The position numbers and the translations under genes were made by a program. A DNA stretch of 64,000 bases, from positions 2,852,001 to 2,916,000 of the forward strand of contig NZ_LT796768.1 in NCBI RefSeq assembly GCF_900167475.1, read 5' to 3'. Below the pieces are notes generated by a model. That model was not told the DNA's origin. It saw only the letters and a list, made by a program, of their open reading frames with translations, and did no database searches. Positions 2,603 to 24,308 of this stretch are shown one piece after another; the stretch's first letter is position 1; the number at the start of each line of letters is the position of its first letter. This DNA comes from Aeromicrobium choanae. Its GTDB lineage: Bacteria; Actinomycetota; Actinomycetes; Propionibacteriales; Nocardioidaceae.

Positions 2603-2624
2603 GTTCATACCGCGTTCACCGCAC
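2603..2624 (+). promoter_or_regulatory. PHO box (PhoP operator) upstream of pstC
   Basis: Two adjacent 11-base direct repeat units, GTTCATACCGC (2603-2613) and GTTCACCGCAC (2614-2624), match the GTTCAYYYR-type units bound by PhoP in streptomycetes. A weak third unit may follow at 2625-2635, where a -35 would lie. The pst genes downstream support the reading. Confidence 0.8.
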
Positions 2625-2696: not shown

Positions 2697-3713
2697 GTGA
2701 CCACGGTCCTGCCCACCCGGGCGCCGTCCGATGCTGCACCGGACGCCCCCCGCGCCATCGGCGGCGGCCAGGCCGGCGCCGACCGCGTCTTCGACCTCGC
2801 GATGCGCGCCACCGGGACGACGGTCCTGCTGATCACCGGCGGGATCGGCCTCTTCCTGGCGCTGCAGGCGGTGCCGACCCTGCGCCACTACGGGCTCTCG
2901 TTCTTCACCGAGACGCAGTGGGAGCCGGACGCGGACGTCGTCGGCATCGGCTCGGTCCTCGTCGGCACGTTCTCGGTCGCCGCCGTCGCGCTCGTCGTCG
3001 CGTTCCCGCTCGCTCTCGCCACGGCGCTGTTCATCAGCGAGTACGCGCCGGCGCGGCTGCGGGGACCGCTCATCTCGATGGTCGACCTGATGGCGGCCGT
3101 GCCCAGCATCATCTACGGGCTGTGGGGGTTCTTCCTGCTCCAGCCGCACGCCAGCTCGGTGGCCAGGTGGATGCACCAGCACCTCGGCTTCCTCCCGTTC
3201 TTCGAGGTCAAGGCCGATCCCGGGGCCGCGATCTGGGAGCAGAGCCGTTACACGGCCTCGGCCTTCATCGCCGGCCTCGCTGTGGCGATGATGGTGATCC
3301 CCATGGCGTGCGCCATCATGCGCCAGGTGTTCAGCCAGGCGCCGCTCGGCGAGCGGGAGGCGGCGTACGCGCTCGGCGCCACGCGGTGGGGCATGATCCG
3401 CTCGGTCGTGCTGCCCTTCGGGCGTGGCGGCATCATCGGCGGCACGATGCTCGGCCTGGGCCGTGCCCTCGGCGAGACGATCGCCGTCCTGCTGATCATC
3501 TCGCCCGCCTTCGTCCTGAAGCCCCGCGTCCTCGAGATCGGCACCAACACGGTCTCGGCCTTGATCGCAGGACGGTTCGGCGAGGCCAGCGGGGGACAGC
3601 TCCAGGCCCTGCTGACGGCCGGCTTCGTCCTGTTCGTGATCACACTCCTCATCAACACCGCGGCGGCCGTCGTCGTCTCGCGGAGCCGTTCCGGAGCGGG
3701 GACCGACGCATGA
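2697..3713 (+). CDS. pstC: Phosphate ABC transporter permease PstC
   Basis: 338 residues with six transmembrane helices and the permease EAA loop, here EAAYALGATRW, followed by GRALGETIAV. PstC pairs with PstA to form the membrane channel of the high-affinity phosphate importer. The GTG start has a good ribosome binding site 5 bases upstream. It is the first gene of a run in which neighbouring genes overlap by 4 bases (pstC/pstA, pstA/pstS1, pstS1/6396, 6396/8900), so translational coupling is likely. Expression is probably induced by phosphate starvation through the PHO box at 2603-2624. Confidence 0.95.
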   Translation: MTTVLPTRAPSDAAPDAPRAIGGGQAGADRVFDLAMRATGTTVLLITGGIGLFLALQAVPTLRHYGLSFFTETQWEPDADVVGIGSVLVGTFSVAAVALVVAFPLALATALFISEYAPARLRGPLISMVDLMAAVPSIIYGLWGFFLLQPHASSVARWMHQHLGFLPFFEVKADPGAAIWEQSRYTASAFIAGLAVAMMVIPMACAIMRQVFSQAPLGEREAAYALGATRWGMIRSVVLPFGRGGIIGGTMLGLGRALGETIAVLLIISPAFVLKPRVLEIGTNTVSALIAGRFGEASGGQLQALLTAGFVLFVITLLINTAAAVVVSRSRSGAGTDA

Positions 3714-4798
3714 GCACGACCATCGCCCGGTCCGAGCCGGCCACGCCCCAGCCGCCCGCCGGCACCCGCCGGCTCTCCACCGTGACGGCCGAGGACCGCT
3801 TCGTCGAGATCGGCTCGTGGGTGGCCGGCTTCTCACTGGCGTGGATCGTGAACGCGCGGCTGCTGCCGTGGACGGGGCTCCTGCCGCTCGTCATCTCGAC
3901 CGTCGTCGCCGGCCTGGGCGTGCTGGCCGTGGCCACGGCGATGACCGAGCCGCGACCCGTGGTCGTCGACCGTGTCGTCGCGGCACTCGTCCACGTCGCG
4001 GCCCTCATCGTCGCCGTCGCCCTGTTGTCGACCGTGGCGTTCATCGTGTACCGCGGGCTGGGCGCACTGTTCCACTTCTCGCTGCTGACGCAGGACATGT
4101 CGGGCGTCGGGCCACGGGACGCGTTCGACCGCGGAGGCATCCTGCACGCGGTCGTCGGCTCCCTGATCCAGGTGGGCATCGCCGTGCTGGTCACCGTGCC
4201 GCTCGGGATCGGCACGGCGGTCTTCATGACCGAGGTCGGTGGCCGCTACGCGCGCATCGTCCGCACCGTCGTGGAGGCGATGACGGCGCTGCCGTCGATC
4301 GTGGCCGGGCTGTTCATCTACACGACCCTCATCGTGGCCCTCGGGATCGACCGATCCGGGTTCGCGGCCGCGATGGCGCTGGGTGTGATGATGCTCCCGA
4401 TCATCGCCCGCGCCGCCGACGTGGTGCTGCGCGTCGTTCCCGGCGGCCTGCGCGAGGCGAGTCTGGCCCTCGGTGCGTCGCGGTGGCGCACGGTCTGGCA
4501 CGTGGTCCTGCCCACCGCCCGGCCGGGCCTGGCCACGGCCCTGATCCTCGGCGTCGCGCGGGGGATCGGCGAGACCTCGCCCGTGCTCCTGACCTCCGGT
4601 GCCGCCTCCTTCCTCGTCCTCGACCCGACCGACGGCGTGATGAACTCCCTGCCGCTGTTCATCTACTCGACCGTGCGCAGCGGTGAGCCGATGTACATCG
4701 AGCGCGCCTTCGCGGCCGCCACCGTCCTGCTCCTGCTGGTGCTCGTGCTCTTCGCGATCGCTCGCCGCCTCGCCCGCCCCCGAAAGGTCTCCCGATGA
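3710..4798 (+). CDS. pstA: Phosphate ABC transporter permease PstA
   Basis: 362 residues. The ATG overlaps the pstC stop (ATGA). Extra hydrophobic helices at the N-terminus (residues about 30-75 and 85-115) precede the standard permease domain with the EAA loop EASLALGASRWRTV and RGIGETSPVLL. It forms the second half of the phosphate channel. The extended N-terminus is common in actinobacterial PstA. The gene overlaps the following binding-protein gene by 4 bases. Confidence 0.95.
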   Translation: MSTTIARSEPATPQPPAGTRRLSTVTAEDRFVEIGSWVAGFSLAWIVNARLLPWTGLLPLVISTVVAGLGVLAVATAMTEPRPVVVDRVVAALVHVAALIVAVALLSTVAFIVYRGLGALFHFSLLTQDMSGVGPRDAFDRGGILHAVVGSLIQVGIAVLVTVPLGIGTAVFMTEVGGRYARIVRTVVEAMTALPSIVAGLFIYTTLIVALGIDRSGFAAAMALGVMMLPIIARAADVVLRVVPGGLREASLALGASRWRTVWHVVLPTARPGLATALILGVARGIGETSPVLLTSGAASFLVLDPTDGVMNSLPLFIYSTVRSGEPMYIERAFAAATVLLLLVLVLFAIARRLARPRKVSR

Positions 4799-6399: not shown

Positions 6400-8903
6400 A
6401 GCGCACGCTGCTGTTGATCCCCGCCCTGCTGGTCGTGGTGGCCGGTCTGCCGCCCGCCGTGACCCCCGGGGCGCAGGCCGCGTCGGGCTCGTCCTTCAGC
6501 CGGACGAAGGAGGTCGACCGCACCTTCGAGGAGGACGGCCAGGCCGTGTCGGTCGAGAAGCGCCGCGTGTCGGTGACGGTCGATCACACGCAGGACCTCC
6601 GCGGCCGCGAGCGCGTCCAGATCTCCTGGAAGGGTGCCCACCCGAGCGGTGGTCGCGCGGCCAGCCCGTTCGGTGCGGCCGGCCTGCGCCAGGAGTACCC
6701 GGTCGTCATCCTCCAGTGCCGGGGACGGGACGATGCCGCCCTGCCAGCCGCGAAGCGGGTCTCGCCGGAGACGTGCTGGACCTCGACGGCCCAGCAGCGC
6801 TTCCGGTCGACGTCGGAGCGCCAGGCGATCTGGCGTCGCGACCTGCACGCGCGCGAGGGCGACACGAGGCAGAAGAGCGGGATCGACCCATTCCCGACGA
6901 GCGGGTGCGACGACGTCCCGAGCTTCTCGGCGCACGCCGTGACGTTCGTCGACGCGAAGGGGAAGTCGTACACGTCCTGCAGCGCCGAGACGATGGCGCC
7001 CGAGGCGGCCGTCGACGCCGCCCTGCCCGCCGCCGAGCAGGCCGCGTACACCGACGCCGACGGGACCGGGTCGACCAGCTTCGAGGTCCGTACCGCCACC
7101 GAGAACGAGTCCCTCGGCTGCAGCGACACGGTGGCGTGCTCCATCGTCGTCATCCCGGTCATGGGCCTCAGCTGCGTGGACGGGGACGACGAGTGCACCC
7201 GCACGGGACGCTTCGCCCCCGGCTCCAGCAACTTCGCCGGTGACGGCGTCGACGACGCGGTCTCGGCCTCCTACTGGTGGGCCGGGTCGAACTGGCGCAA
7301 CCGGATCACGATCCCGGTCACGTTCGGCACCGCGCCCAACGTGTGCGACGTCCTCGACTCGCGGGCGCCGACGGCGTTCTACGGCTCCGAGCTGATGTCG
7401 CAGGCGGCACTGCAGTGGGCACCGGCCTACTGCCTGTCGAGGAAGCGCTTCAAGTTCCAGCACAACCGCATGTCCGACGAGGCCGCCTTCGCCCTGGTGG
7501 AGAAGGGCGGCGCGCCGGCGGCGCTGGTGTCAGGGCGTCGCGAGCAGGAGGACGAGGCCCCCGTGGCCTACGCGCCCACCGCCGTCACCGGGTTCGCGAT
7601 CTCCTACGTCATCGACCGGCCGAAGAACGCCGGCGAGTACGACCGGCTGAGGCTGACCCCGCGCCTCCTCGCGAAGCTCCTCACGCAGTCCTACACCGGC
7701 TCCGCCTACGGAGCGCAGCATCCGGGGATGGGCCGCAACCCGCAGTCCCTCAACCAGGACCCCGAGTTCCAGGCGCTCAACCCGGGCCTGGACGCCACGA
7801 CTCGCGAGGCGGCGGCCACGGTGCTGTCCCTGTCGGAGTCCTCGGACGTCATGACCTCGTTGACCTCCTACATCGCCGCCGATCCCGAGGCCCGGGCTTT
7901 CATGGACGGGAAGGCCGATCCGTGGGGCATGGCGATCAACCCGAGCTACCGCCGGCTGAAGCTGCCCGTGGCGGAGTGGCCGCTGCTGGACACGTTCGTG
8001 CCCGAGTACGACCTCGACTGCCAGCAGCAGCTCAGCACCCCCTACTTCACGCAGCTCGCCGCACCGGTCTCGAGCCTGCGCACGATCGCCGAGGCGGTGC
8101 TCGACGCCTGGCCGAACGTGCAGACCAAGTGCGAGCGGCCCTCCAGCTCCGATCCGTACAAGTTCGGGCGGGCCGACCGCCAGGGCGTCGGCGCGCGCTT
8201 CATGCTGGGCGTCGTCAGCCTCGGTGACGCCGAGCGGCTCGGCCTGAGGACGGCGGCGGTGCGCACCTCCGGGAAGACCTGGGTGTCGCCGACCCGCTCG
8301 TCGATGGCGGCCGCCGTCGGGACCGCGACGGCCGTGAAGGGCTCGACCGGCGCCTTCGAGATCACGCCGCGGGCGCTGGCGAAGCGACCGCAGGCCTACC
8401 CCGGGACGATGATCGTCTACACCGTGGCGCGGACGCGCGGCCTGGCTCCGAAGGACGCCCAGCACGTCTCCCAGTTCATCCGCGTCGCCACGAGCGAGGG
8501 TCAGCGGCCGGGGTCGGCCAACGGCACGCTGCCGTCGGGCTACCTGCCGATCCTGGCCGCGGGAGTCACGAAGCGCCTGTACGACGCGGCGCGGCACGCG
8601 GCCGACCTCATCGCTGCGCAGCGGCCCGAGAGTGCGCCGGGGACGAACGACACCACCACCGCGTCGGCGGGCGGTGGCTCAGGTCCCGACACCTCGGTGA
8701 CGGCGCCGCAGGGCGACGTCCCGCCGGAGCAGGCCCGCGCCTCCGGACCGGCGAAGGCCACCATGGTCGCGACGGAGCCCACGAGCGCGATCACCTCGAC
8801 GTCGGGACGAATGCTGCTGCCGCTGCTGCTGTGCGTGGGCCTGGCGGCGGGCGCGCTCGGGCCGGTCCTGCGGGGCGTCGCGGCGGCGAGGGCACGGCGG
8901 TGA
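6396..8903 (+). CDS. Large secreted, membrane-anchored protein of unknown function with PBP-like half
   Basis: 835 residues, not recognised as a named family. The signal peptide ends near AQA. The N-terminal third is beta-rich and contains HTQDLRGRERVQISWKG, which recalls a neocarzinostatin/Ig-like fold. The middle and end look like a worn PstS-type fold: LRLTPRLLAKLLTQSY and FQALNPGL sit where PstS proteins have their interlobe segment, but the phosphate loop SDGSGT is replaced by LSESSDVMTSL. At least ten cysteines suggest extracellular disulfides. A Thr/Ala/Gly/Pro-rich linker leads to a C-terminal helix and an Arg tail, as in PstS1. The ATG overlaps the pstS1 stop, so it is translated with the transporter. 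The PBP relation is inference from pattern, not a search. Confidence 0.75.
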   Translation: MKRTLLLIPALLVVVAGLPPAVTPGAQAASGSSFSRTKEVDRTFEEDGQAVSVEKRRVSVTVDHTQDLRGRERVQISWKGAHPSGGRAASPFGAAGLRQEYPVVILQCRGRDDAALPAAKRVSPETCWTSTAQQRFRSTSERQAIWRRDLHAREGDTRQKSGIDPFPTSGCDDVPSFSAHAVTFVDAKGKSYTSCSAETMAPEAAVDAALPAAEQAAYTDADGTGSTSFEVRTATENESLGCSDTVACSIVVIPVMGLSCVDGDDECTRTGRFAPGSSNFAGDGVDDAVSASYWWAGSNWRNRITIPVTFGTAPNVCDVLDSRAPTAFYGSELMSQAALQWAPAYCLSRKRFKFQHNRMSDEAAFALVEKGGAPAALVSGRREQEDEAPVAYAPTAVTGFAISYVIDRPKNAGEYDRLRLTPRLLAKLLTQSYTGSAYGAQHPGMGRNPQSLNQDPEFQALNPGLDATTREAAATVLSLSESSDVMTSLTSYIAADPEARAFMDGKADPWGMAINPSYRRLKLPVAEWPLLDTFVPEYDLDCQQQLSTPYFTQLAAPVSSLRTIAEAVLDAWPNVQTKCERPSSSDPYKFGRADRQGVGARFMLGVVSLGDAERLGLRTAAVRTSGKTWVSPTRSSMAAAVGTATAVKGSTGAFEITPRALAKRPQAYPGTMIVYTVARTRGLAPKDAQHVSQFIRVATSEGQRPGSANGTLPSGYLPILAAGVTKRLYDAARHAADLIAAQRPESAPGTNDTTTASAGGGSGPDTSVTAPQGDVPPEQARASGPAKATMVATEPTSAITSTSGRMLLPLLLCVGLAAGALGPVLRGVAAARARR

Positions 8904-9805
8904 CCACCTGGAGCGTGCGGGTGCCGGGGCGGCGGGCGAAGCCACGACCCGTGGCCGCACCGGTCGCCCTGCCGGCCGAGATCGCGGTCGTGACCGAGGC
9001 GCTGACCGTGGTCGCGGTCGTGTGCGCCTGGGTCGTCCTGCAGCTGCTCGTCCTCGGCGGGGTCTCGCACGACCGTGCCCAGCACGTGCTCCACGCCCAG
9101 TTCCGCACGGACCTCGCCTCCGCCACCGCGCCGGTCGGCGGAGTCATCGATCCCGGCACGCCGGTCTCCACGCTGACCATCCCCGGCCGGGGCATCAGCG
9201 AGGTGGTGGTCGAGGGCACCGCATCGAGCCAGACACTCGGCGGACCCGGGCACCGGCGCGACACCGTCCTGCCGGGACAGCCCGGCACCTCGGTCCTCTA
9301 CGGACGCAGCAGCACCTTCGGCGCACCGTTCGGCGGGCTCGACGACCTGCGCGTCGGCGACCCGATCATGACCGTCACGGGGCAGGGCCGGGCGGCCTAC
9401 GAGGTCAGTGGGCTCAGGCGCGCGGGCGACCCGCTGCCGCAGCCGCTGGCACCGGGCGCGGGCCGGCTCGTACTCGTCGGCGCCGAGGGTCAGGGCCGCC
9501 TCGCGGCACTGTCCCCGGGCGCGGTGGTCTTCGTGGACGCGGAGCTCGTCTCCAAGCCGCACGAGGCCGGGGCTCCTCGCGTGCCCTCGGTGCCCGAGGC
9601 GGAGCAGCCCATGGGCCGTGACACGTCCGTCCTGCCCCTGCTGGCGCTGGTCCTGGCCGGCGTCGCAGCGGTGGTCGCACTCGCGACCTATGCGCGCGCC
9701 CGGCTCGGGAGAGCCCGTGCCTGGGTCCTGCTGTCGGCCCCACTCGTCGCCCTGGCCTGGATCGCGACCGATCTCGGCGTGAGCCTGCTGCCGAATCTGG
9801 TGTGA
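8900..9805 (+). CDS. Sortase-fold membrane protein lacking the catalytic triad (pseudo-sortase)
   Basis: 301 residues. An N-terminal helix (about 31-52) is followed by a sortase-type barrel (about 85-220) and two C-terminal helices (about 243-263 and 273-296). Class E/D sortase landmarks are clear: GTPVSTLTIP, GGPGHRRDTVLPG, FGAPFGGLDDLRVGD and LVLVG. The catalytic His of GHR is Arg136 here (YGRSS), the Cys of LVTC aligns with Ala195, and the usual Arg before the last strand is missing. It should fold as a sortase without transpeptidase activity. The GTG overlaps the previous stop by 4 bases. A role as scaffold or receptor for the neighbouring anchored binding proteins is inference. Confidence 0.75.
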   Translation: MTTWSVRVPGRRAKPRPVAAPVALPAEIAVVTEALTVVAVVCAWVVLQLLVLGGVSHDRAQHVLHAQFRTDLASATAPVGGVIDPGTPVSTLTIPGRGISEVVVEGTASSQTLGGPGHRRDTVLPGQPGTSVLYGRSSTFGAPFGGLDDLRVGDPIMTVTGQGRAAYEVSGLRRAGDPLPQPLAPGAGRLVLVGAEGQGRLAALSPGAVVFVDAELVSKPHEAGAPRVPSVPEAEQPMGRDTSVLPLLALVLAGVAAVVALATYARARLGRARAWVLLSAPLVALAWIATDLGVSLLPNLV

Positions 9806-9825: not shown

Positions 9826-9847
9826 TTTCACCTGCCGTTCACCGCAA
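9826..9847 (+). promoter_or_regulatory. Second PHO box, upstream of pstS2
   Basis: Two 11-base units, TTTCACCTGCC (9826-9836) and GTTCACCGCAA (9837-9847), have TTCACC in register. The arrangement copies the pstC site. Confidence 0.72.
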
Positions 9848-9928: not shown

Positions 9929-11776
9929 ATGAAGCGAAACCGTGTATCGGCCGTCACGGCCGGTGCGGCCCTCGTGGTCGGCTCGACGCTGACCCTCATG
10001 TCGCCCGCCGTCGCGGCCGACGTGAACCCCTTCGATCCGACCTTCGTCCCGAACACCACCGACGACCTCGTCGGTGTCGGATCGGACACCACCCAGATCG
10101 TCACGCACGACATCGCGGTCGCCTACAACGCGGGCCGTGCCTCGGGCCGGATCGCGTCGTTCGCGGCCGACGGGGCACCGGCCACCGTGACGCTGCGCAG
10201 CGGACTCGCCGCGATCACCCGTCCGAACGGCTCGGGCGCGGGCAAGAAGCTGCTCTACGCTCCCGACAACAACCCCCACGTCTCGTTCGCCCGGTCCTCG
10301 TCCACCCTCAACCCGGCCGAGATCACCGGCGGGCTCAAGCAGGCGGCCTTCGCCGTCGACGGTCTGCAGATGGCCGTCAGCTCGAGCGCCACGAACGCGC
10401 CCGCGGAGCTGACCATCGACCAGATCCTGCGGATCTACAAGGGCGAGGTCACGAACTGGAGCCAGGTCGGCGGCCGGCCGGGCGCCATCAGGGCGCTCAT
10501 CCCGCAGTCGGGCTCCGGCACCCTGAGCTTCTTCACGTCGCAGCTGACCGCCGCGAACGGTGGCATCCCGTTCACCCCCGTCGCCAGCTCCACGCAGGAG
10601 CACAGCGACGTCGACGTGAAGGGCGACCCCAACGCGATCGCGCCGTTCTCCAGCGCCCGCGCCACGATCACCTCCACGGTCGACGCGCTCGGCGGCTGGA
10701 AGGCGACGCGCGCGGTCTACAACGTCGTGCGCACCGCGGACCTGGCGAGCGGGACCCTCGGGTCCACGCTCACGAACGTCTTCGGTGAGGACGGCTGGAT
10801 CTGCGGGCCGGATGGTCGCGCCGTGATCGAGAGGGCCGGCTTCGAGCAGCTGGCCTCCACGGAGGACGGCGGCGCGTGCGGCCAGTTCGTCACCGATCCG
10901 GTCTCCAACCTCAAGACCTCCGACCAGGCCGACGCGGTCGCCACCACGACGACGCTCGCGGCCTCGGCACCGGGCAACCGCACCGTGGCCCTCCGGGCGA
11001 CGGTCGGCACCGGTGGCGGCGCACCCGCGGCCGGCAAGGTCGAGTTCCGTGAGGGCGAGTCCGTCGTCGGGTCCGCCTTCACCTCGGGAGGCGTCGCCTC
11101 GCTCACGCTGTCCGGTGTCTCGGTCGGCTCGCACCAGTACACCGCGACGTTCGTGCCGACTCGGGCGAACGACTTCACCCCGTCCGAGTCCGCCCCGCAG
11201 CAGGTCGTCGTCAAGACCCCCGCCGCGGTGACGGTCACCGGTGTCTCGGCCCCGTACGGCAAGGCGAAGACGGTCACCGTCAAGGCGACGGTGAACGGCG
11301 CGGCCGCCACCGGCTCCGTGCGGGTCGCGGTCGGCACCGGCGCGGCCAGGGCCTACCCCCTGTCGCGCGGCACGGCGACGGTCCCGGTCGCGGCCGGGAC
11401 GGCTGCGGGCGCCCTGCGCGTGGTCGCCTCGCTGCCCGGCTCGGCGTCCGTCGACCCGGCCAGCCGCACGTTCACGCTCAAGATCGCCAAGGCGAAGGGC
11501 AGCGTGACCGCCAAGCTCGTGAAGGCCAAGGTCAAGGCGTCGCAGCGCGGCGTGCTGCGCGTGACGGTCAAGCCCGCGGGCGTGCCGGTCACGGGCAAGG
11601 TCACCGTGAAGGCCGGCTCGAAGGTCGTCGGTCGCGGCGTCGTCAGGAACGGGAAGGTCACCGTCAAGCTGGCGAAGCTCAAGAAGGGCACGCACCGGCT
11701 GGTGGTGTCGTACGGAGGCGACCGGAACGTCACGGGCGCCAAGGCCAGGACCCTGAAGGTCAAGGTCACCCGCTGA
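9929..11776 (+). CDS. PstS-like substrate-binding protein with C-terminal Ig-like repeats (PstS2)
   Basis: 615 residues. The signal peptide ends near AVA29. A PBP-like domain (about 30-335) contains GVGSDTTQ and [10 protein letters not shown]. In authentic phosphate binders the second loop reads RSDGSGT, so the Arg and Asp are missing here and the ligand may not be free orthophosphate. Two or three bacterial Ig-like repeats follow (about 338-615) and the C-terminus is very rich in Lys and Val. There is no anchor helix, LPXTG or lipobox, so binding to the wall through the basic Ig tail is inference. It has its own PHO box and sits between the pst permease unit and pstB. Codon use resembles the neighbours. 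Confidence 0.82.
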
Positions 11777-11849: not shown

Positions 11850-12704
11850 ATGAGCGTCACCACCGACACGTCGATCATTCCCCTCGTGGAGTCAGAGACG
11901 ACCGTCATCCCGGTCGTGGACGGGCCCACACCGGCCGGCCTCCACGCCGAGAGCGTCTCCGCCTGGTTCGGCCGCCACCACGTCCTCGACCGCGTGTCGC
12001 TCGACATGCCCGCGGGACGCGTCACCGCGCTGATCGGCCCGTCCGGCTGTGGCAAGTCCACCTTCCTGCGCACCCTCAATCGCATGCACGAGCTCGTCGA
12101 CGGCGCCCAGTTCGCGGGCGCGGTCCGCCTCGACGGCGACGACATCTACGACCCGCGCCGCAAGCTCATGGACGTGCGCCGCAGCATCGGCATGGTGTTC
12201 CAGAAGCCCAACCCGTTCCCGGCCATGTCGATCCGCGACAACGTGCTGGCCGGCCTGCGGCTCACCGGCACCCGCGCCAGCAGGTCCACCAAGGACGAGC
12301 TCGTCGAGTCCTGCCTGCGCCGCGGCGGGCTCTGGAACGAGGTCAAGGACCGCCTCGACGCGCCGGGCGGTGGTCTCTCCGGCGGTCAGCAGCAGCGCCT
12401 GTGCATCGCGCGCTCACTCGCGATCCGGCCGCGGGTCCTATTGATGGACGAGCCCTGCTCCGCCCTGGACCCCACCTCGACGCGAGTCATCGAGGAGACG
12501 ATGATCGAGCTGGCGCGCGAGGTGACGATCGTCATCGTCACGCACAACATGCAGCAGGCCGCACGCGTCTCGGACCAGTGCGCGTTCTTCCTCGCGGCGC
12601 AGGGGACACCCGGCGTGATCGTGGAGCACGGCGACACCGCCTCGATGTTCGCCTCGCCCCAGGACCAGCGGACGCACGACTACGTCAACGGCCGCTTCGG
12701 ATGA
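11850..12704 (+). CDS. pstB: Phosphate ABC transporter ATP-binding protein PstB
   Basis: 284 residues with Walker [10 protein letters not shown], the [11 protein letters not shown] segment characteristic of PstB, the signature [16 protein letters not shown], Walker B VLLMDEP and the switch His in THNMQQ. It powers PstCA from the cytoplasm. The ATG is chosen for the ribosome binding site GAAGGAA (11837-11843) and because upstream codons are Pro-rich non-family sequence. An N-terminal extension of about 30 residues precedes the ABC domain. It is the only ATPase gene at the locus and is separated from pstCA by four genes. Confidence 0.95.
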
Positions 12705-12833: not shown

Positions 12834-13454
12834 GTGCAGGAGCTCTCGATCGGTGCCGGTTCCGCGCTGCCCCCGTCCGTCGACGCCACCGCCCAATCGG
12901 GCGTCGACCCCACCTGGGTCCGCCGGAACGCGGACCGCACGGGCATCCCCGCGGTCGCCGTGGGCGCGTACGCCGACGCCGCCCTCGCTCTGGGCACCGA
13001 GCAGCCGGCGTGCCGCCTGGGATGGACCACCCTGGCCGGCATCGCCACGGTCGAGTCTGACCACGGGCGACACGCTGGCGGAACCCTCGACGCGCAGGGC
13101 CGCACCACCGTGCCGGTGATCGGACCCGCGCTCGACGGATCACCGGGCCTGGCGGCGATACCGGCAGACGCGGCCTCGACGGCCCGCCACGGCGACCCCG
13201 TTTGGGACCACGCGGTCGGGCCGTTCCAGTTCATCGGGTCCACGTGGGAGCGCTGGCGGGCCGACGGCGACGGCGACGGGGTCGAGGACCCGCACGACCT
13301 GGACGACGCCGCACTCGCGGCGGCGCGCTACCTGTGCGCCGCGGGCCAGGACCTGAGCACGGGCCAGGGCTGGAGCCGGGCCATCCACTCGTACAACCAC
13401 TCCGACGAGTACGTCCTCGCCGTCCTCGCGGCGGCCGAGGCCGTGGCCGGCTGA
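12834..13454 (+). CDS. Lytic transglycosylase-like muramidase (leader in another frame)
   Basis: 206 residues from GTG 12834. The SLT-type fold includes IATVESDHGRH with the catalytic Glu, then AVGPFQFIGSTWERW, DLDDAALAAARYLC and SYNHSDEYV. These elements are typical of actinobacterial lytic transglycosylases that cleave glycan strands outside the cell. The frame has no secretion signal, while a good one lies immediately upstream in the other frame, overlapping the pstB stop. The gene is therefore a frameshifted pseudogene, contains a sequencing error, or uses recoding. As the last gene after pstB it may belong to the phosphate-starvation unit. Confidence 0.75.
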   Translation: MQELSIGAGSALPPSVDATAQSGVDPTWVRRNADRTGIPAVAVGAYADAALALGTEQPACRLGWTTLAGIATVESDHGRHAGGTLDAQGRTTVPVIGPALDGSPGLAAIPADAASTARHGDPVWDHAVGPFQFIGSTWERWRADGDGDGVEDPHDLDDAALAAARYLCAAGQDLSTGQGWSRAIHSYNHSDEYVLAVLAAAEAVAG

Positions 13455-13472: not shown

Positions 13473-14780
13473 TCAGCCCTCGGTGGAGGCCGAACCCGTC
13501 GCCAGACCGCGCATCCGCGCCACCAGGTCGTCGAGCCAGGCGCCGACATTCCTCCGCGACTCGCGGGTGTCGGGGTAGCGGCAGCGCAGGTGCACGCCGG
13601 AGTCGTCGATGATGAACCAGAGCATCACGCCATGCGTGCGAATGGCCGCGCCGACGTACTGCGCGTCGAGCCCGGCCGTGTCGATCCGCACGGGGAGGCG
13701 ACGCAGGTCGAGCCACGAGACGGCGAACATGCCCGGCTGCTCGGGCATCCCGCCCCAGGGCTTCATCAGGTCGGCCAACGGCCACGAGCCCAGCCGGATC
13801 GCCTCCTTCACGGCAGCGGAGCACGCCCGCGGGTCCTCGTCGGCGGACTCGAGCACGGAGTTCGTGATGAACCAGCCGACCGAGTCGTGCCACCGGTCCT
13901 CGTGGCGGCTGTGCACGGGGAAGACCGTCCGCAGCGGCGTGCCCGCGAGCTCGAGCGTCGTCGCCGTCATCGCGGAGACGGCGAGGGCGAGCGTGGAGAC
14001 GCGCTGATCGGCGGCCCGCGCGGAGAACGCCGCCAGCTCGCCGAGGTCGAGCACGTCGCGGATCACCACGCGCTCGGGCTGGGGCGTGGGGTCGCCGAGA
14101 GGGAGGGGGAATCGCGGCATCGCCCCGCCGCCCGCCTCGATGACCTCGTCCCAGCGGTGGTGGATCTCCTCCGGCGCGGGCGTGAGCCGCGCGAGCTCGA
14201 CCGTGTGCTCGGCGAACGGGGGCACCTCCGGCAGCTCCGCCGTCCGCCCCTCGCGGATCTGGTCGAGGACCGCCAGCAGGTCGCGCGCCATGACGAGCAG
14301 TGACCACATGTCCACGTGGGCGTGGTCGGCCGCCATGATGAGACTCGGCCCGTCCGCCGTCTCGATGACGCAGAACCGGTGGGAGGGCCGCTGGTAGGGG
14401 CGGCAGCCCTCGTCCAGCACATCGCGCAGCGCATCGTTCATGGACTGACCCGGAAGCACCTCGTGCTCGGTCCATCGTCCGGCCTCCACCGTCACCTCGT
14501 GCAGGGTGGGGGAGCCGTCGGTCCCCGGCACGAACACCGAGCGCAGCGTCCCGTGCGCCTGCACCACGGCACACCACGCGGCCGCCAGGTCGTCGCGCGG
14601 CACCGGAGCGCCCAGCCGCATGGCCAGCGCCATCCACGACCCGGTGCGGTCGCCGAAGCCGACGTGGCGCGCCTGGTCGAACGAGACGGGCAGCTGCGGT
14701 CCGGGCTCGGACACGACGAGCTCGTGGCTGAGCAGCGGGCCGAACGGAAGGCGCAGGTGCGCGACGTGCGTGAGACGCAT
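13473..14780 (-). CDS. Stand-alone condensation-domain/PapA-like acyltransferase
   Basis: 435 residues with the fold of NRPS condensation domains and mycobacterial Pap acyltransferases. The catalytic motif is present as DHAHVDM, keeping the HxxxD His and Asp but lacking the first His of HHxxxDG. A second conserved region around GWFITNSV corresponds to the floor-loop segment. Such proteins move an acyl group to a hydroxyl or amino acceptor. No carrier protein, NRPS or PKS gene is nearby, so the donor and acceptor are unknown. The ATG lies 6 bases after TAGGTT on the minus strand. It is divergent from the alpha/beta hydrolase at 14827, a possible partner. Confidence 0.78.
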   Translation of the reverse strand: MRLTHVAHLRLPFGPLLSHELVVSEPGPQLPVSFDQARHVGFGDRTGSWMALAMRLGAPVPRDDLAAAWCAVVQAHGTLRSVFVPGTDGSPTLHEVTVEAGRWTEHEVLPGQSMNDALRDVLDEGCRPYQRPSHRFCVIETADGPSLIMAADHAHVDMWSLLVMARDLLAVLDQIREGRTAELPEVPPFAEHTVELARLTPAPEEIHHRWDEVIEAGGGAMPRFPLPLGDPTPQPERVVIRDVLDLGELAAFSARAADQRVSTLALAVSAMTATTLELAGTPLRTVFPVHSRHEDRWHDSVGWFITNSVLESADEDPRACSAAVKEAIRLGSWPLADLMKPWGGMPEQPGMFAVSWLDLRRLPVRIDTAGLDAQYVGAAIRTHGVMLWFIIDDSGVHLRCRYPDTRESRRNVGAWLDDLVARMRGLATGSASTEG

Positions 14781-22589: not shown

Positions 22590-24308
22590 TCAGGCCAGGC
22601 GCGCGACCTGGAGGTCGACGTCGAACCGCTCGAGGTGCCGGGCCGCGGCGGGCCACGCCGAGCTCCAGGAGCCCCGCACCATGCGGACACCCGGCGACTC
22701 CAGCCAGCGCAGCAGCGCCTCGGTCTCCTCGATCAGGGCCGCGGGCATCGGCCGGATCGCCGGCTCGACCGTCTCGGCGGTGGTCAGCAGGATGTCGACC
22801 CAGCCGGCCGTTGCGCCTCGGGTGGTGGCGACCTGGCGCGGCAGGATCGCCGCGGCCGCGAGCCGGCCGTGACGGATCACGTGCACCTGCCACCCGTCGG
22901 CGTGGGGCGCCGCGGCGATCACCTCGGGCTCGGCCGCGAGGGAGTCGAGCCGTTGGGTGCGGCGCACGGCGCGGATCAGGCTGGCGGCGCGATCGCGCAG
23001 GACGGCGGCGTCCTCGAATCGCTGGCTCTCGGCGAGGTGGGCCATGCGCTGCTCGAGGTGGGAGACGACCTCGACCGGGTCGGCGGTCATCGCCGTGCGC
23101 ACCCGCGAGACCTCGAGGAGGTAGTCGGCCGGCGTGACGGCACCGTCGCAGGGGGAGAGGCACTGGCCGAGCTCGGCCAGCACGCAGGCGGCGCGACTGG
23201 GCTTGATCGGCAGCCGGCCGGAGCACTGCCGGATCCGGAAGGCGTCGTGGAGCGTGGCCAAAGCCGCCTCGGCCTGGCGCCGGCTGCCGAAGGGGCCGAT
23301 GTGCGTGGCCGCACCCTCGGTGACCGAGCGGACGAGGGAGACACGCGGCCACGGCTCGTCGGTGAGGCGCAGCCACGACACCCGCTCGGGGAACTTGGAG
23401 CGCCGGTTGTACGGCGGGCGGTGGCGATCGATGAGGCGCAGCTCGCGCACGCGCGCCTCGGTGTCGGTGGAGCACACCACGGTGTCGACCCGCTCGGCCA
23501 GCGCGATCATCTCGCCCATGCGCGAGCGCGTCTCGGCCTTGGTGAAGTACGACCGCACGCGGGTGCGCAGCGATCGCGAGGTGCCCACGTAGAGGACCTC
23601 ATCGCGCGCGTCGCGGAAGAGGTAGACGCCGGGCGCATCGGGGACGCCGTCGGCGAGGTGACGCTTGCGGCGCTGCTGGGGCGTGACCTTCGAGGTGAAG
23701 CTGGCGACGTCCTCCACGGTGGCCACGTTCCAGGTGCCGAGCCGCTCGAAGAGGGCGTGCAGGACGTCGACCGTGGCGCGGGCGTCGGTGAGCGCCCGGT
23801 GATCGGGCTGGACGGGGGAGAAGCGGGCCGCGAGCGTGGAGAGCTTGACGTTGGGCACCTCGTCGCGCAGCAGCACCCGACGGGCCAGTGGGACGGTGTC
23901 GATGACGTCGAAGCCCGGCCAGGTGATGCCCAGCTCCCTGGACGCGTGCTTGAGGAAGCCGACGTCGAAGGGCGCGTTGTGGGCGACCAGGACGGTGCCG
24001 TGCGCGAACTCCAGGAAGCTGGGCAGCGCCTCGGCGATGCGGGGCGCCTCGACGAGCATCTGGTCGGTGATCCCCGTCAGCACCGTGATGAACGCGGGGA
24101 TCAGCTGGTCGGGGTTCACGAGCGTCTGGAACTCGCCCAGGATCTCGCCGCCACGCACCTTGACCGCACCGATCTCGGTGATCCGCGACCCCTTGGCGGG
24201 CGATCCGCCCGTGGTCTCCAGGTCGACCACGCAGAACGTGGTGTCGTGGAGGGGACGGCCACCCCAGTCGATGTCGGGGTCGTCGAAGGCGGGTTGGTGC
24301 GATGCCAT
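22590..24308 (-). CDS. DEDDh exonuclease fused to a GIY-YIG/UvrC-like nuclease
   Basis: 572 residues. The N-terminal DnaQ-type exonuclease (about 20-185) has DLETTGG, HNAPFDVGFL and HRALTDA motifs supplying the DEDDh metal ligands. The second half has a GIY-YIG domain (GVYLFRDARDEVLYVGTS, about 222-300) and then UvrC-like and UVR sequence. The same fusion is known in mycobacteria (Rv2191). It probably acts in DNA repair or end trimming, but its substrate is not established. ATG 24308 is fixed by TACGGT six bases upstream. Confidence 0.9.
   Translation of the reverse strand: MASHQPAFDDPDIDWGGRPLHDTTFCVVDLETTGGSPAKGSRITEIGAVKVRGGEILGEFQTLVNPDQLIPAFITVLTGITDQMLVEAPRIAEALPSFLEFAHGTVLVAHNAPFDVGFLKHASRELGITWPGFDVIDTVPLARRVLLRDEVPNVKLSTLAARFSPVQPDHRALTDARATVDVLHALFERLGTWNVATVEDVASFTSKVTPQQRRKRHLADGVPDAPGVYLFRDARDEVLYVGTSRSLRTRVRSYFTKAETRSRMGEMIALAERVDTVVCSTDTEARVRELRLIDRHRPPYNRRSKFPERVSWLRLTDEPWPRVSLVRSVTEGAATHIGPFGSRRQAEAALATLHDAFRIRQCSGRLPIKPSRAACVLAELGQCLSPCDGAVTPADYLLEVSRVRTAMTADPVEVVSHLEQRMAHLAESQRFEDAAVLRDRAASLIRAVRRTQRLDSLAAEPEVIAAAPHADGWQVHVIRHGRLAAAAILPRQVATTRGATAGWVDILLTTAETVEPAIRPMPAALIEETEALLRWLESPGVRMVRGSWSSAWPAAARHLERFDVDLQVARLA

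Follow-up and report, generated by a model that had tools for sequence, protein, structure and literature searches.

Among the described systems, those closest to the locus analysed here are the class E sortases, represented by SrtE1 from Streptomyces coelicolor (PDB 5cuw; NCBIfam model NF033747), and the phosphate transporter PstSCAB, an ATP-binding cassette (ABC) transporter. The locus is found on a stretch of 64,000 nucleotides from Aeromicrobium choanae (contig NZ_LT796768.1, positions 2,852,001 to 2,916,000; hereafter the window), where an operon of Pst type includes a gene coding for a sortase-like protein, named here pseudosortase. This protein resembles the class E sortases by its fold and by its best NCBIfam match (2.1e-14), but its catalytic triad is replaced and its score of 53.9 bits lies below the cut-off of 160. 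In SrtE1, Tyr229, localized directly after the strand ending at His228, is proposed in the excerpt of PMC5148588 as the LAXTG-recognising residue of class E; the corresponding position of the pseudosortase is not a tyrosine. The operon shares with PstSCAB the permeases PstC and PstA and PHO-box-like sites, has a PstB-like ATPase and a PstS-like protein with a phosphate loop, and differs from it by a C-terminal transmembrane (TM) segment on PstS, by an altered giant PstS (named here BIG) and by the pseudosortase.

Two other known systems have to be compared. The Csc clusters of Firmicutes bring together CscA (DUF916), WxL proteins and a short LPXTG protein (Siezen 2006, PMC1534035), and the excerpted description mentions neither an ABC transporter nor a pseudosortase. 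Part of the loci related to ours also contain WxL-type, WxLIP-type (CscA-like) and LPXTG/LAXTG proteins in one cluster, but there an ABC transporter and a pseudosortase are associated with them; over its first 20 kb, the window has no such cluster. According to the consulted portion of PMC13251363, class B sortases anchor iron transporters and are thus also tied to nutrient uptake; they are however enzymes, whereas the pseudosortase is devoid of the triad. The same portion describes five sortases of A. missouriensis with lengths and domain positions unlike those of the pseudosortase family. In the titles and abstract beginnings of the openly licensed literature, no article about a pseudosortase or about a sortase in a pst operon was found, and the terms "inactive" and "degenerate sortase" each had single mentions. 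Each of the parts belongs to a known kind; their combination is undescribed within the reach of these searches. According to the data presented below, many soil actinobacteria keep a sortase-shaped, triad-less membrane protein in an apparent second phosphate-uptake operon.

A predicted sortase fold under purifying selection

The open reading frame (ORF) of the pseudosortase is present at the coordinates given by the original prediction (Table 1). Its residues 92-172 match the Pfam family Sortase (PF04203, 9.7e-11), and two of its relatives reach 64.8 and 64.9 bits with the class E model. The AlphaFold2 model, obtained from 61 aligned sequences, has a mean pLDDT of 92.9 and a pTM of 0.85; it predicts a TM helix (residues 26-73), barrel strands from 88 to 216 and two TM-type helices (242-269 and 271-295). 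With this model as query of Foldseek against the PDB, the best 50 of 259 matches (E <= 10) are all sortases, the top E value being 6.9e-10. Superposition of the model residues 58-222 with VIA-align gives Z values of 18.5 for SrtC (7d6t, class C), 16.5 for SrtF (5uus) and 15.7 for SrtE (5go5). The confident barrel and these matches bear out the proposal that the landmarks of the sortase barrel are kept; no differing fold appeared among the matches listed, and the sortase fold is settled as far as prediction reaches.

For the single pair formed by the pseudosortase and its closest relative, the nonsynonymous divergence (dN) is 0.083 and the synonymous divergence (dS) is 0.594 (dN/dS about 0.14), which indicates that the gene is maintained by purifying selection.

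Loss of the catalytic triad

A genome scan has recovered 338 relatives (loci and genomes are designated by L and G numbers, respectively). The best 80, referred to as the named loci, were taken via the pattern [GA]PGHR[RS]DT[VP] and include Streptomyces, Nocardioides, Actinoplanes, Ilumatobacteraceae and others. Since the pattern demands these residues, their invariance among the named loci is built in; the triad columns fall outside the pattern. Relatives were found by the alignment-based scan, whereas a scan of genome contigs with the single protein yielded none, and the plasmid records yielded one weak, unannotated match. Two alignments were used. The first contains 20 rows, i.e. the window protein and 19 relatives detected by whole-protein similarity (identity from 86% to 35%; the near-copy L011 was dropped). 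The second contains 61 rows, i.e. the window protein and 60 of the named loci, the other 20 being omitted for doubtful starts, a frame break or near-copies. The triad was scored in all 80 named loci, including these 20. As 10 records are common to the named loci and to the 20-locus set built around the first relatives, the two sets represent 90 distinct loci.

The alignment with active relatives places Arg136 at the position of the catalytic His, Ala195 at that of the Cys and Val209 at that of the Arg, in agreement with the substitutions proposed beforehand. In the 20-row alignment, the His position is occupied by Arg in all rows, the Cys position by Ala (14 rows) or Ser (6 rows), and no row has an Arg at 209. 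Among the named loci, the His position is occupied by Arg (77) or Lys (3) and the Cys position by Ala (65), Ser (10), Gly (3) or Thr (2), while an Arg at 209 is found in 0/80. An intact His/Cys/Arg set is found in neither sample, the whole triad being gone in 20/20 rows and 80/80 named loci, and a recent local loss is thereby ruled out. On the basis of these alignments, the loss of the triad is old and fixed. In the two Plantactinospora loci L116 and L118, Arg and His are swapped at the old site (GRH versus GHR), the His being one residue past the catalytic position.

Taken by itself, the loss of the triad would fit a relic in decay that persists through its linkage to the operon. This explanation is contradicted by the dN/dS ratio of the pair given above, by the reading frame, open in 79 of the 80 named loci, by residues that are invariant across distant families and by the exact co-occurrence with BIG described below; we consider it extremely improbable. 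The remaining locus, L081 (Nocardioides ungokensis, complete genome), displays frame breaks in the pseudosortase and apparently also in BIG and PstS1, perhaps due to sequencing errors.

The strong conservation of the barrel and of many pocket motifs, together with the serines at the Cys position (6/20 rows, 10/80 named loci), could also be explained by catalysis with another chemistry, based on new residues in the old pocket. However, 68/80 named loci, and the window protein too, have an Ala or a Gly at the Cys position. Moreover, the sole invariant His of the 61-row alignment (His118) also occurs in the active sortases, and the alignment has neither an invariant Cys nor an invariant Ser. A new enzymatic activity is for these reasons very unlikely.

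A further explanation is that the former active site has become an anion site, where the basic residue at the His position and other arginines would bind either phosphate itself or a wall-borne phosphate polymer, which would then be passed towards PstS1 and the PstCA channel. An Arg or a Lys is found at 136 in the 80 named loci, in the 20 alignment rows and in 8/9 phylum-search loci localized beside the operon; Arg69, Arg173 and Arg189 are invariant in the 61 rows, and the setting is an operon of phosphate type. Nevertheless, Arg189 is also present in the active sortases L143, L145 and L149 and is absent from the divergent pseudosortases L140, L141 and L144, so that it is not a new mark of the pseudosortases. 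The invariance of Arg119-Arg120 in the 61-row alignment is a product of the search pattern, and position 119 is occupied by L, S, R, E, Q or V in the members found by the phylum search. We regard an anion site as quite unlikely.

Co-occurrence with pst genes and BIG

All the distinct relatives (90/90, from the named loci and the 20-locus set) adjoin Pst-type genes on the same stretch. Concerning the 49 congeneric genomes, BIG and the pseudosortase are both present in 15 and both absent from 34 (with a pseudosortase match above 150 bits and BIG as bait; some of these genomes are incomplete). Across the phylum (396 genomes), BIG matches above 600 bits number seven and fall in the seven genomes with the strongest pseudosortase matches. 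Weaker BIG matches occur in G113, G098 and G462, which hold the divergent members L141, L142 and L144, and in G418, which holds L207. The weak BIG matches of G370, G139 and G189 were rejected as representatives of the same system because they fit the PstS1 profile much better (218, 165 and 144 bits versus 57, 50 and 36 bits). The distribution of the operon is patchy, and BIG and the pseudosortase occur together in the sets examined.

BIG possesses an added N-terminal region and a C-terminal TM helix. Its homology with PstS is indicated by a profile search of the PDB (1.8e-8), by hhalign against PstS1 (5.7e-14) and by its model (mean pLDDT 75.9), of which the residues 321-741 superpose on PstS-1 from Mycobacterium tuberculosis with a Z value of 31.3. 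PstS1 keeps the phosphate loop SDGSGTT, and its residues Asp84, Gly180 and Gly182 are conserved in 19/19 rows; we take these PstS residues to be phosphate ligands. The corresponding sequence of BIG is SESSDVM, where both glycines and the threonines are lost, while positions 483-484 retain a Ser-Asp pair, in 16 and 19 of the 20 rows, respectively. The invariant Asp84 of PstS1 maps to column 374 or 375 of BIG, where an Asp is found in 2 or 0 of 20 rows. By this comparison, BIG resembles a PstS in which the usual mode of phosphate binding has been lost, and its ligand may be something else. Four cysteines of BIG (242, 248, 317 and 346) are invariant in 20/20 rows.

Overlaps of 4 bp link pstC, pstA, pstS1, BIG and the pseudosortase gene, which are followed by pstS2-Ig and pstB. 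PstC and PstA exceed the cut-offs of their families. A separate canonical pst locus is present elsewhere in the same genome.

Table 1. Coordinates of the features of the operon in the window.
Feature	Position	Strand	Evidence or remark
PHO-box-like direct repeat (GTTCACC units, 11-nt period)	2603..2620	+	2 mismatches; 94 bp before pstC
PstC-like permease	2697..3713	+	TIGR02138, 254 bits (cut-off 196)
PstA-like permease	3710..4798	+	TIGR00974, 211 bits (cut-off 193), scan from 3725; ATG overlapping the stop codon of pstC
PstS1-TM, PstS-like binding protein with C-terminal TM segment	4795..6399	+	PF12849, 2.8e-42; TIGR00975, 194.6 bits (cut-off 205)
BIG, PstS paralogue of 835 amino acids	6396..8903	+	PDB profile search, hhalign, model
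Pseudosortase, 301 amino acids	8900..9805	+	Open frame, GTG start; Pfam, NCBIfam, AlphaFold2, Foldseek, VIA-align
Codon of Arg136 (catalytic His position)	9305..9307	+	Alignment with active relatives
Codon of Ala195 (catalytic Cys position)	9482..9484	+	Alignment with active relatives
Codon of Val209 (catalytic Arg position)	9524..9526	+	Alignment with active relatives
PHO-box-like direct repeat	9826..9843	+	1 mismatch, best in the window; 103 bp before pstS2
PstS2-Ig, PstS-like domain with subsequent Big_3_5 repeats	9929..11776	+	PF12849, 5.4e-16; PF16640, 5.9e-23
PstB-like ATPase	11850..12704	+	TIGR00972, 342.2 bits (cut-off 343.2)
SLT-type transglycosylase-like protein	12834..13454	+	PF13406, 3.7e-7; frequent neighbour, perhaps outside the system

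A homologue of the SLT-type gene is found in 29 of the 80 named loci, sometimes at the other side of the operon. An L,D-transpeptidase with YkuD and Big_10 domains (797-1984) is encoded just upstream of the operon, and a stand-alone condensation-domain protein (13473-14780, minus strand) near it; each of them is present in only 1/90 distinct loci, namely the closest relative L034.

PHO-box-like sites

PHO boxes consist of 11-nt repeats in which GTTCACC is conserved, according to the extract of PMC6988585. In addition to the sites listed in Table 1, the window contains one further site with 2 mismatches, at 23787. When the loci are compared, sites with at most 3 mismatches are found before pstC in 40/65 loci (1.0 expected) and before pstS2 in 16/65 loci (0.94 expected), and none was found before the pseudosortase gene in 81 loci (1.06 expected); the expected counts were obtained by sampling 130-bp stretches at random from these loci. 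The sites upstream of pstC are distributed according to gene order, with 30/37 in the order of the window, 7/24 in the other order and 3/4 in unassigned loci. In the same genome, the canonical pstS has an exact PHO box 105 bp before its GTG start. The conserved places of the PHO-box-like sites and the exact box of the canonical gene make control by PhoP likely for operons of the window type.

Wall proteins and sorting signals

The original prediction stated that no neighbouring surface protein has an LPXTG-type signal. This holds within the part of the window that was scanned, its first 20 kb, where no C-terminus of L[PA]XT[GA] type was found, but not for all its relatives. Ten of the 90 distinct loci carry an ORF with such a signal whose end lies at most 1.3 kb upstream of the pseudosortase gene. 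Five of these 10 ORFs end at most 100 bp from the projected pseudosortase start or overlap it. Besides, two such signals are localized farther away on the sense strand and two on the opposite strand. PstS1-TM, and BIG in many loci, end with a hydrophobic stretch and a basic tail, which resembles a sorting signal without the motif.

These observations would agree with a non-catalytic receptor of sorting signals, the old groove gripping C-terminal tails of LAXTG type or similar ones on the surface proteins encoded by the operon and either holding them or passing them to the housekeeping sortase. Most loci nevertheless lack such a signal, and so does the window over its first 20 kb. In addition, position 119, which should correspond to Tyr229 of SrtE1 as judged from the excerpted text and the motif, is an Arg in 19 and a Gln in one of the 20 rows, whereas the printed rows of active sortases have a Tyr or a Phe in 16/17 and a His in L002. 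A receptor function is therefore unlikely.

With respect to the other wall proteins, matches to a WxL profile were observed in 20/91 loci and to a WxLIP profile in 21/91 (the window and the 90 loci, over the fetched stretches); the window itself gave no match over its first 20 kb. These counts are upper estimates, because the profiles are home-made and iterated and part of the matches have no counterpart in Pfam (5/9 tested members of WxL type and 2/10 of WxLIP type, or fewer). Pfam confirms several matches of each type, among them WxL in L090, L094 and L133, and WxLIP above cut-off in L051, L094, L102, L112 and L119; no such match was obtained for L075 and L051 (WxL) nor for L084 and L075 (WxLIP). 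Actinobacterial genes of WxL or WxLIP type adjoin the Pst-like operon in L090, L094, L112, L116, L119, L133 and others. In the part of PMC9772566 consulted, more than 91% of the known bacterial WxL sequences are reported from Firmicutes.

Active relatives and origin

The active proteins close to the pseudosortases are sortases with a C-terminal hydrophobic hairpin and mostly an LP-containing tail. The four that were scanned (L143, L145, L155 and L186) exceed the class E cut-off with 163-189 bits. All the active hairpin loci (14/14, stretches of 5.4-19 kb) keep His, Cys and Arg, and no pst genes were found nearby on these stretches beyond generic ATPase matches of 23-29% identity. The hairpins were judged by a simple hydropathy scan, in which L145 and L160 show only a single segment, and by visual inspection for L208-L210. 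For L207-L210, the residues were likewise taken by eye from the printed sequence.

By contrast, the Cys is absent in 9/9 phylum-search loci localized by pst and/or BIG genes (L136-L142, L144 and L207). With BIG as an independent bait and 13 extra regions, no sortase with an intact triad was found in such operons. The divergent L207, on a contig of 4.5 kb that carries one BIG-like match and another of PstS2 type, has lost the Cys alone; L142 keeps the Arg. The Cys may consequently have gone first. Five genomes (G113, G188, G285, G418 and G462) possess an active copy elsewhere and a Cys-less copy at the operon.

A tree was calculated without the catalytic columns and after removal of the rows L134, L157 and L162. 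It explains the 40 pseudosortases by one label change, with weak support (57/32; 60% of 200 bootstrap trees), and 38 of the 40 form one branch at 99/90; the bootstrap is unsettled and L144 has a long branch. The ancestor would have been a sortase of class E type with two TM helices at its C-terminus, in which the triad was lost. We propose tentatively, at a little below even probability, that a clade of sortases was converted once, early in the Actinomycetota, to an obligate non-enzymatic subunit of a phosphate-scavenging surface complex of a new type. This complex would pair the pseudosortase and a pseudo-PstS with Pst permeases, and some lineages would add WxL, WxLIP or LAXTG wall proteins.

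Proposed role of the pseudosortase

The kept fold, the three TM helices, the absence of the triad, the fixed place in the operon and the constant partner BIG indicate that the pseudosortase is best read as a structural subunit, and the loss of the cutting residues in a sortase-shaped protein suggests that an enzyme has turned into a structural part of a nutrient transporter. We consider it probable that this fixed class E-like pseudosortase is a non-catalytic scaffold subunit in a second system of Pst type for the uptake of phosphate, probably induced by PhoP at low phosphate. The fold, the breadth of the triad loss, the operon, the company of BIG with its altered loop and the places of the PHO-box-like sites are computed results; the phosphate substrate, the control by PhoP, the physical complex and the scaffold role are inferences. 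That a sortase without catalysis has been retained within a transporter operon, as originally predicted, is well supported by the fixed loss, the purifying selection, the constant association with the operon and the exact co-occurrence with BIG. A putative binding or scaffolding role, which the prediction also suggested, stands as the most likely reading.

According to this proposal, the operon would probably be switched on by PhoP under phosphate scarcity. The three TM helices of the pseudosortase would be placed beside the PstCA channel, and its extracellular barrel would hold membrane-tethered binding proteins at the mouth of the channel, BIG in the first place and PstS1-TM too. PstS2, with its Ig repeats, would reach into the cell wall, as would the WxL and LAXTG proteins in some lineages.

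Several points weigh against this proposal. The contact between the pseudosortase and the parts of the transporter is hypothetical. The genome has its canonical pst locus, so that the second operon may carry another anion, and PstS1-TM and PstB score just below their NCBIfam cut-offs (the latter by one bit). The 9 PHO-box-like sites of the whole window do not differ significantly from the 5.07 expected, and the share of sites before pstC is low in the other gene order. Five of the 90 loci are short stretches where a single marker gene (BIG or PstB) is visible, and locus counts are not counts of independent events, since the loci are related. Finally, the triad did not vanish in one step, as L207 keeps the His and the Arg and L142 the Arg.

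Significance for the Actinomycetota

Since PF04203 matches all the members of the 61-row alignment (61/61 at E <= 0.001), the counts of sortases in actinobacteria that are based on this model include triad-less proteins. The retention of a sortase fold throughout a phylum after catalysis has been lost represents a clean case of conversion of an enzyme to a structural part, for which five of these genomes also offer active paralogues for comparison. The locus also points to a second uptake system of phosphate type, in a group where, according to the literature consulted in part, the antibiotic production of Streptomyces is controlled by phosphate supply. The parts of this system may reach through the thick cell wall and, if the proposal is true, would form a wall-spanning surface complex coupled directly to an ABC importer.

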